A stretch of DNA of 45,474 nucleotides from Nitrospirota bacterium (lineage in GTDB: Bacteria; Nitrospirota; Nitrospiria; SBBL01; JAADHI01): NCBI GenBank assembly GCA_029261195.1, contig JAJDBU010000013.1:1-45474 (forward strand), read 5' to 3'. Shown in pieces: positions 44,428 through 45,474 of the stretch. The notes beneath the pieces were generated by a model. That model did not search any database and was not told the DNA's origin. It worked only from the letters and a program-made list of their open reading frames with translations. Position 1 is the first letter of the stretch; each line of letters opens with the position of its first letter. A program made the position numbers and the translations under genes.

Positions 44428-44769
44428 ATGCAGATTGCAAACATTGAAAAAATGAAGGCCTTTTCTTCTGAAAAGATGAAGAAGACAAATCTTTTTAATA
44501 CGGATCGCATGTTGACTGATCTCTACTGCTTTGAGCCGGGACAATTCCAGAAACCACATGCACATGGGGGAGAAGACAAGGTCTACCTCGTTCTTGAAGG
44601 AGAAGGGGTTTTCCAGGTTGACGAAGAAGAAGAAACCCTTTCAAAAGGATCGGCAGTCATCGCACCCGCCGGTTCAATCCACGGTGTCGCCAATCACTCC
44701 TCTGAACCCTTGCTCTGCCTGGTTTTCATGGCACCCTTACCCAGTCATGCCAAGGCTCACAAACACTAG
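44428..44769 (+). CDS. Small cupin-domain protein
   Basis: The 113-residue protein is a single cupin barrel. Metal-site residues are His44, His46 and Glu49 or Glu-Asp nearby (KPHAHGGEDKVYLVLEGEG), with His85 in PAGSIHGVAN. The spacing fits cupin motifs one and two. Single cupins may be dioxygenases, isomerases or sensors; no substrate can be named. GGAGG precedes ATG 44428. It directly follows the membrane-protein gene. Confidence 0.85.
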   Translation: MQIANIEKMKAFSSEKMKKTNLFNTDRMLTDLYCFEPGQFQKPHAHGGEDKVYLVLEGEGVFQVDEEEETLSKGSAVIAPAGSIHGVANHSSEPLLCLVFMAPLPSHAKAHKH

Positions 44770-44909
44770 AAAGCGATTGATCAACGTCCCTTCTGAGCCA
44801 GGAATGAGTCTGAAACGAGGTGTGCGTGAACATGCTGGACATATTGAATTCGTAAAAGGAAACAGTAAAATAAAAATAAAAACTTTGTTTCTCTAATTTT
44901 CCCAGGAGC

Positions 44910-44937
44910 TAAAGTTTTTTAATCGACCTGCCGATAG
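44910..44937 (+). promoter_or_regulatory. Sigma-28-like (flagellar) promoter
   Basis: TAAAGTTT (44910-44917) and GCCGATAG (44930-44937) match the enterobacterial FliA consensus TAAAGTTT-N11-GCCGATAA at 15 of 16 positions. The spacer is 12 rather than 11. The small gene at 44974 starts 37 bases after the -10. Confidence 0.65.
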
Positions 44938-44973
44938 ACTAAGGTAGCAATCCTTCTTAAACAAAGGAATTGA

Positions 44974-45183
44974 ATGTCGATTACTGTTTTAAAGATTCAT
45001 AATGTTTTGCGGACCTATGATCATCTGATCAAGTCGAAGGTCGATCGCAGGCCTCCAAAGCATGAAAACCCTGAGAACAAACCACAAGAATCCGCTGTTC
45101 CCTTAGACCGGGTGACCATCTCCAAGGAATCCAGGGAACGCCTGAGCCAATATCTAGACTTGGATGCGAAAAACGAGGAATAA
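44974..45183 (+). CDS. Small protein, DVU0524/FlgM-like pattern, possibly flagellar
   Basis: The 69-residue protein starts at ATG 44974 with AAAGGA (44964-44969). It reads ITVLKIHNVLRTYDHLIKS at the N-terminus, then a charged disordered middle and DRVTISKESRERLSQYL at the end. The N-terminal VLRTY and the D.V.IS.E.R block recall FlgM and the DVU0524-like small proteins found in flagellar loci. The sigma-28-like promoter upstream agrees with a flagellar link. Identity as FlgM is not proven: it is short and lacks a clear C-terminal sigma-binding helix pair. Confidence 0.62.
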   Translation: MSITVLKIHNVLRTYDHLIKSKVDRRPPKHENPENKPQESAVPLDRVTISKESRERLSQYLDLDAKNEE

Positions 45184-45444
45184 AGTGCCTAGCGGAAGAA
45201 AAAACTACCGACCGAATTAGATCATCATCTTTTTTTGTTGATGTTGACAGCATCCCCGGAAATCTCTTAAAAACCGCACTCACAGAGGAAAATTTCCCCG
45301 TTCAGCCCGCCAATTGCGACTTGGAAGCCTGTCAAAGAAAAAGTCCTAAACTTAGTTGAAATTGAGAAATGACCTCCGAGTCAGTATTGTTGGTTTAGCA
45401 AACTGCGAAGCCGCAAAACAGACAAACCTAAGCACGGAGGCCAC
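45184..45444. other. Gap of 261 bases before the right-edge gene
   Basis: I see no gene and no confident hairpin or promoter. Sequence from about 45355 (GAAATTGAGAAATGACCTCCG) could be an insertion-element end belonging to the gene that follows, but no partner repeat is in view. Confidence 0.35.
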
Positions 45445-45474
45445 ATGAAAATCGTAGAGAAAAAAGGAAGAAAA
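45445..45474 (+). CDS. First ten codons of a gene cut by the window edge
   Basis: ATG 45445 follows GGAGG (45436-45440) and reads MKIVEKKGRK to the edge. The strong ribosome-binding site makes a real gene likely. The product cannot be identified; a transposase is possible. Confidence 0.5.
   Translation, partial: MKIVEKKGRK

Follow-up and report, generated by a model that had tools for sequence, protein, structure and literature searches.

Gene X, as we call the small gene at positions 44974..45183 (plus strand) of the DNA analysed here, is on the evidence of its sequence a late flagellar gene of the sigma-28/FliA class. Its short product is a divergent relative of the DVU0524 family, and we hold this identity and regulation with high confidence. 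Because it combines a conserved sigma-28 promoter with one segment in common with FlgM, yet is not FlgM, X probably works beside FlgM and FliA as an accessory regulator of the late flagellar stage. The best explanation as a whole, to which we give a probability of about 0.55, is that this late gene tunes the FlgM/FliA feedback through its FlgM-like segment. The stretch of DNA analysed (the window, 45,474 nucleotides) is the whole of contig C5 in a 3.04 Mb, 99% complete assembly of a Nitrospirota bacterium.

The promoter of gene X

Gene X is an intact open reading frame of 69 amino acids with an ATG start, preceded by AAAGGA, a probable ribosome-binding site, 6-11 nt upstream (44963..44968, plus strand). 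Farther upstream lie a SnoaL-like gene (PF13474, 43075-43509) and a cupin gene (PF07883, 44428-44769). The earlier note had described a near-perfect sigma-28 promoter with 15 of 16 matching positions and a 12-base spacer, and exactly this was present at 44910-44937. The -35 block TAAAGTTT (44910..44917, plus strand) agrees with the consensus at 8/8 positions and the -10 block GCCGATAG (44930..44937, plus strand) at 7/8, which gives TAAAGTTT-N12-GCCGATAG a score of 15/16 against the consensus TAAAGTTT/GCCGATAA.

The exact pattern occurred once in the window and in 0 of 100 shuffles, and once in the whole genome, where the reversed-pattern control gave 0. No other site of at least 13/16 was found on either strand of the window with a spacer of 11 or 12, and in 3.04 Mb of random DNA with the base composition of the window, 0.05 sites of 15/16 would be expected on each strand. 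The same genome encodes FliA on contig C17 (246 bits, cut-off 189.6), and the absence of fliA, which the earlier note had named as a sign against its reading, was therefore not observed; a consensus site of 15/16 with N12 and its sigma factor are both present.

Comparison with other promoters showed that flgM of the same genome has a promoter of the same type, TAAAGTTT-N12-ACCGATAG. When the whole genome was searched with a looser sigma-28 pattern, 5 sites were found (reversed control, none), in front of X, flgM (N12), flagellin (N11), a pseudopilin-like gene (N11) and a gene for a secreted protein (N11). The last two sites, both sigma-28-like with N11, are at G000:C35:14857-14883 (type IV pilin-like, or pseudopilin, gene) and G000:C7:5759-5785 (secreted protein), and both genes were labelled by eye from their sequence. 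The usual spacer of E. coli sigma-28 promoters is 11. Among 30 flgM loci, drawn from the 41 FlgM matches and belonging to the family, order and class of this genome, all 30 had a site of at least 12/16 within 200 nt upstream and 24 had N12, so a spacer of 12 is normal locally.

The promoter is also conserved upstream of orthologues. In the family of this genome (8 genomes), a sigma-28 site precedes X in 7/7 genomes that have the gene, with 13-16 of 16 positions and N12 in every case; the remaining genome (G004) has FliA and FlgM, X was not detected there, and it may have lost the gene. When 8 upstream regions were aligned, 15 of the 21 invariant columns fell in the two promoter blocks. A chance promoter is ruled out by this conservation, by the uniqueness of the site in window and genome and by its low random expectation, and it is highly probable that X has a true sigma-28 promoter. 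A sigma-70-like site of 9/12 also precedes X on the same strand (44844-44871); sites of this quality numbered 2 in the region when 0.9 (sd 1.1) are expected by chance, which is not above chance. No terminator was found behind X in 44700-45474.

Relation to DVU0524 and FlgM

The two sequence blocks reported in the earlier note, VLRTY and one of the DRVTIS.ESRERL type, were found at residues 11-15 (within IHNVLRTY) and at residues 45-57 (DRVTISKESRERL). A structure model of the protein has helices at 5-24 and 51-67 joined by a linker of lower confidence (mean pLDDT 75.6, pTM 0.30), and no solved structure matched X at E<=10. A Pfam search with the protein gave no match at E<=10, FlgM, FliS, FliT and FlaG included, and an Rfam search of the window gave none either.

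DVU0524_fam (NF041863) was the best and sole NCBIfam match for X at E<=10, with an E-value of 2.4e-4 and a score of 21.4 bits, which is below the curated cut-off of 40 bits; the six-frame search gave 19.5 bits. Residues 3-56 align to positions 2-49 of the 64 in the profile and cover both conserved blocks, the N-terminal IxNVLRTY block followed by the D.V.IS.EA block, while the last 15 profile positions are unmatched by X. The model found the window open reading frame as its only match in the genome at E<=10 (E 0.003). It also gave sub-threshold matches in 7/14 control genomes at E<=10, and the single score of X is therefore weak when taken alone. DVU0524_fam was also the best match for 8/8 other orthologues tested, all of them under the cut-off.

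Relatives that bridge X and the family exceeded the cut-off of 40 bits: L141 scored 40.5, L139 47.7, L137 47.9, G363 54.3 and L140 80.7 bits. The four records with L numbers are of Deltaproteobacteria type (three Deltaproteobacteria MAGs and Dethiosulfatarculus), and N12 sigma-28 promoters precede these members too. A site of 14/16 with N12 is followed by X and then FlgM in L137, L139 and L140, where FlgM was identified by profile in L137 and L140 and by likeness to L137 in L139. In L141 a 15/16 site with N12 is followed by X and a response regulator, which links X to a DVU0524 member over the cut-off with the same type of operon. The flgM adjacency implied by the family name is absent for X of the window, whose genome has flgM on another contig (C18), and in relatives X precedes a response regulator, a cyclase and a PilZ gene. 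We read X as a divergent relative of the DVU0524 family that falls short of membership under the curated cut-off.

The family name, DVU0524 or 'FlgM-associated', was found in no paper of the literature searched, and searches for the X gene, including those on FlgM with diguanylate cyclase and on sigma28 promoters in Nitrospira, returned nothing on X.

The earlier note had proposed a FlgM/DVU0524-like protein, to be checked with the profiles of both families. The two were not both rejected, and the DVU0524 half of the proposal stood at the sub-threshold level given above; the FlgM half did not, because neither the Pfam (PF04316) nor the NCBIfam (TIGR03824) FlgM profile matched X at E<=10 and the C-terminal part of FlgM is missing. 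The X protein stops at residue 69, some 20 residues past the motif, and has no counterpart of the GtYxV...-type C-terminal part that 30 FlgM sequences show. The genome encodes a true FlgM on C18 (66 bits, cut-off 25) in the setting flgI-flgJ-flgM-flgN-flgK, where names other than flgM were given by eye.

Alignment of the two families by hhalign showed that they are similar in part. Comparing 23 sequences of X with 30 of FlgM gave a probability of 89.7, a P-value of 1.8e-6 and a score of 35.4, when 40 column shuffles reached at most 11.9 and reversed FlgM scored 7.3. The similarity was found in the C-terminal halves, which scored 29.9 (P 9.5e-6) against a maximum of 13.4 in 60 shuffles. The N-terminal halves scored 5.3 without the start methionine, within the range of 60 shuffles (up to 9.2), and marginally above it when the methionine was kept (11.0 against a maximum of 10.2 in 60 shuffles); homology of the N-terminal halves is thus unsupported. 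The motif D.[VIL].[ILV]S..[AGS] is present in 29/30 FlgM and 22/23 X sequences. It also occurs in 21 of 593 open reading frames from the window and 12 loci, 9 of them X or FlgM and 12 neither. The L141 protein aligned to the Pfam FlgM profile under the cut-off (residues 39-62 to profile positions 1-24, E 0.047).

By these alignments, the C-terminal half of X resembles the start of the anti-sigma region of FlgM (the DxVxIS..A segment). The common segment is short, its well-conserved residues number about 10, and convergence could account for it. A different protein of 95 amino acids with EDRVTISPEARRR stands before an ATPase-like gene, identified by eye, in locus L098 (G382), and this motif may have a wider use across the phylum.

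FlgM is a disordered protein, and X is like it in its D.V.IS..A segment, its type of sigma-28 promoter, its small size and a predicted mostly unfolded state. That X is itself a true FlgM, an anti-sigma-28 factor, would agree with the common segment and the promoter. X differs from FlgM in the lack of a profile match and of the C-terminal sigma-binding part, and the genome encodes a genuine FlgM elsewhere; on the missing match and the separate FlgM we reject this identity as extremely improbable. A paper that PMC3861889 cites states in its title that the C-terminal half of FlgM becomes structured on sigma-28.

Gene order, distribution and the contig end

We then compared 36 loci of X, which comprise 16 of the 30 loci from one X search and 20 further loci of the 30 from the profile search. 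Three loci judged not to be X (L021, L028 and L098) were left out before this count, as were 12 weaker loci (L022, L025-L027, L031-L036, L038 and L039, L038 being the same place as L091) and the 32 of 62 profile matches that came without loci. The fliS gene is just upstream of X in 23 of the 36 loci, and 22 of these 23 are without their own sigma-28 site. When fliS is not upstream (13 loci), 12 carry a site of at least 13/16 with N12 within 150 nt. The exceptions are G003, which has both fliS and its own site, and G012, which has neither. The association between the position of fliS and an own site was significant by Fisher's test (p 1.3e-7, with relatedness ignored). The two arrangements would serve one end, in which X is expressed either as part of the late cluster of flagellin and cap genes or from a sigma-28 promoter of its own. 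The genome of the window has a fliC-flaG-fliD-fliS-fliT cluster without X, named by eye and by analogy with profile-checked loci.

That X is a late export substrate or a FliS/FliT-like export chaperone, expressed together with flagellin and cap, would fit the frequent position behind fliS, the two-helix flexible model and the confirmed FliT gene adjoining X in G013. It would also fit the long DVU0524 form of Dethiosulfatarculus sandiegensis (L140:6001-6438), which ends in a FlaG domain (PF03646, 28.6 bits) and is followed by flgM. The window protein has no match to the FliS, FliT or FlaG profiles and X stands beside FlgM in other loci, and we regard the export reading as unlikely. In G054 fliS and X are separated by a gene of 109 aa, for which Pfam gave no match.

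Downstream of X, a gene with a REC or GGDEF domain was found in 33 of the 36 loci, the exceptions being the window, G363 (flgM next) and G064. In relatives of its own family, X is mostly the first of a co-directional set of X, response regulator, diguanylate cyclase and PilZ genes, and its stop codon overlaps the next start in G002 and perhaps in G001, where the true start is uncertain. Domain searches in representative loci confirmed the response regulator, GGDEF, PilZ, FliS and FliT. A neighbour of about 500 aa that had been considered as a sigma-54 activator (FleQ-like) is a GGDEF cyclase by the same searches. X and the response regulator form one open frame of about 240 aa in L018 and L136 (Candidatus Manganitrophus GAC4) and are separate in G013 and G014; the fusion is possibly an assembly error, since neighbouring genes look frame-shifted too.

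This gene order and these domains would also fit a reading in which X is a partner or adaptor of a c-di-GMP module, binding the adjacent response regulator or cyclase and gating the flagellar brake, with an incidental FlgM-like segment. X stands directly before flgM instead in L137, L139, L140 and G363, and we find this reading possible but fairly doubtful. Further evidence against it came from the end of the contig, where the response regulator of the window is a pseudogene.

The left part of this remnant is at 45231..45336 (plus strand). It ends in CCTGTCAAA (45328..45336), a probable 9-bp target-site duplication whose other copy is at C32:55045-55053, and the left end of an insertion sequence follows at 45337..45474, in which the contig ends. 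The last 138 nt of the window are 100% identical to sequence at C6:1-139, C75:26903-27040 and C7:17168-17305 and 78% identical at C51, a repetition typical of insertion sequences, and the insertion-sequence end of the window forms an imperfect inverted repeat with the end of C32 (C32:55045-55191). A tblastn search with the window alone gave no response-regulator match at 45231..45336; a 58-residue response-regulator fragment scored 50 on its own, against a maximum of 42 in 500 shuffles. When the flanks of the window and C32 were joined at CCTGTCAAA, the alignment to the response regulator of G001 was restored (summed E 1e-24), from which we infer that C5 and C32 are neighbours and that the insertion sequence broke the assembly.

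The joined response regulator, which the insertion sequence splits, has in-frame stops, frame changes and NLVRKGLNKP where the relative has DLVLTDLKMP, the block that holds the phosphoacceptor Asp. X keeps its motifs and its promoter beside this dead gene, which argues that X is independent of that regulator. The diguanylate cyclase (62% identical to that of G001) and PilZ genes are both intact at the end of C32, so the pseudogene argument applies to the regulator only and not to the cyclase or PilZ. The dead regulator and the start of the insertion sequence 153 nt past the X stop codon could also point to a decaying operon leftover after the insertion; against this, the open frame, both motif blocks and the 15/16 promoter of X are intact, and we consider decay very unlikely.

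In the phylum, a profile of X (alignment A1) matched 62 of 395 genomes at E<=0.01, and a FliA search of equal scope gave 247 of 395 genomes over the cut-off. Comparison of the two lists by eye placed every one of the 62 X-matching genomes among the 247 with FliA (hypergeometric p 8e-15, phylogeny ignored), and some weak matches among the 62 cover the D.V.IS part only and may be other proteins. The remaining 185 of the 247 FliA genomes had no X match at E<=0.01, and this result, together with the genome of the family in which X was not detected, makes X a dispensable, accessory gene.

Proposed role of X

In the preferred reading, that of a late gene tuning the FlgM/FliA feedback, FliA, free after completion of the hook-basal body and export of FlgM, would transcribe X. 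The product would have two helices and be largely unfolded, and its FlgM-like DxVxIS..A segment may let it touch a partner of FlgM, either FliA or the flagellar export gate. Such a contact, made without the sigma-28 block of the FlgM type, would tune the feedback in the late stage, and c-di-GMP genes on the same transcript would tie the late stage to the flagellar brake. The molecular step by which X would act is tentative and, in our estimate, rather doubtful as stated. A more specific and quite unlikely version is that X is a sigma-28-made 'FlgM fragment', the opening anti-sigma segment without the inhibitory helices, that competes with FlgM, either over FliA or over export, and keeps sigma-28 active. 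If true, X would be a positive arm to the negative feedback of FlgM, made in relatives on one transcript with the c-di-GMP brake.

The phosphodiesterase (pdeH) and YcgR genes of E. coli are at separate loci. FliA (sigma-28) places these c-di-GMP/PilZ genes, pdeH and ycgR, in the late flagellar class of E. coli, as stated in a passage of PMC8669469. The likeness to the loci described here is the presence of c-di-GMP/PilZ genes in the sigma-28 late class; the difference is that a phosphodiesterase and YcgR are found there, whereas a diguanylate cyclase and PilZ stand behind a DVU0524-like leader gene here.

The DVU0524 family has so far been named by its neighbour alone. The comparisons tie a divergent branch of it to the sigma-28 regulon, with a promoter where the gene is on its own and, in all cases but one, none behind fliS. 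They also connect the family with c-di-GMP genes that neighbour late flagellar genes in Nitrospirota. The segment common to X and FlgM is open to direct testing with FliA.
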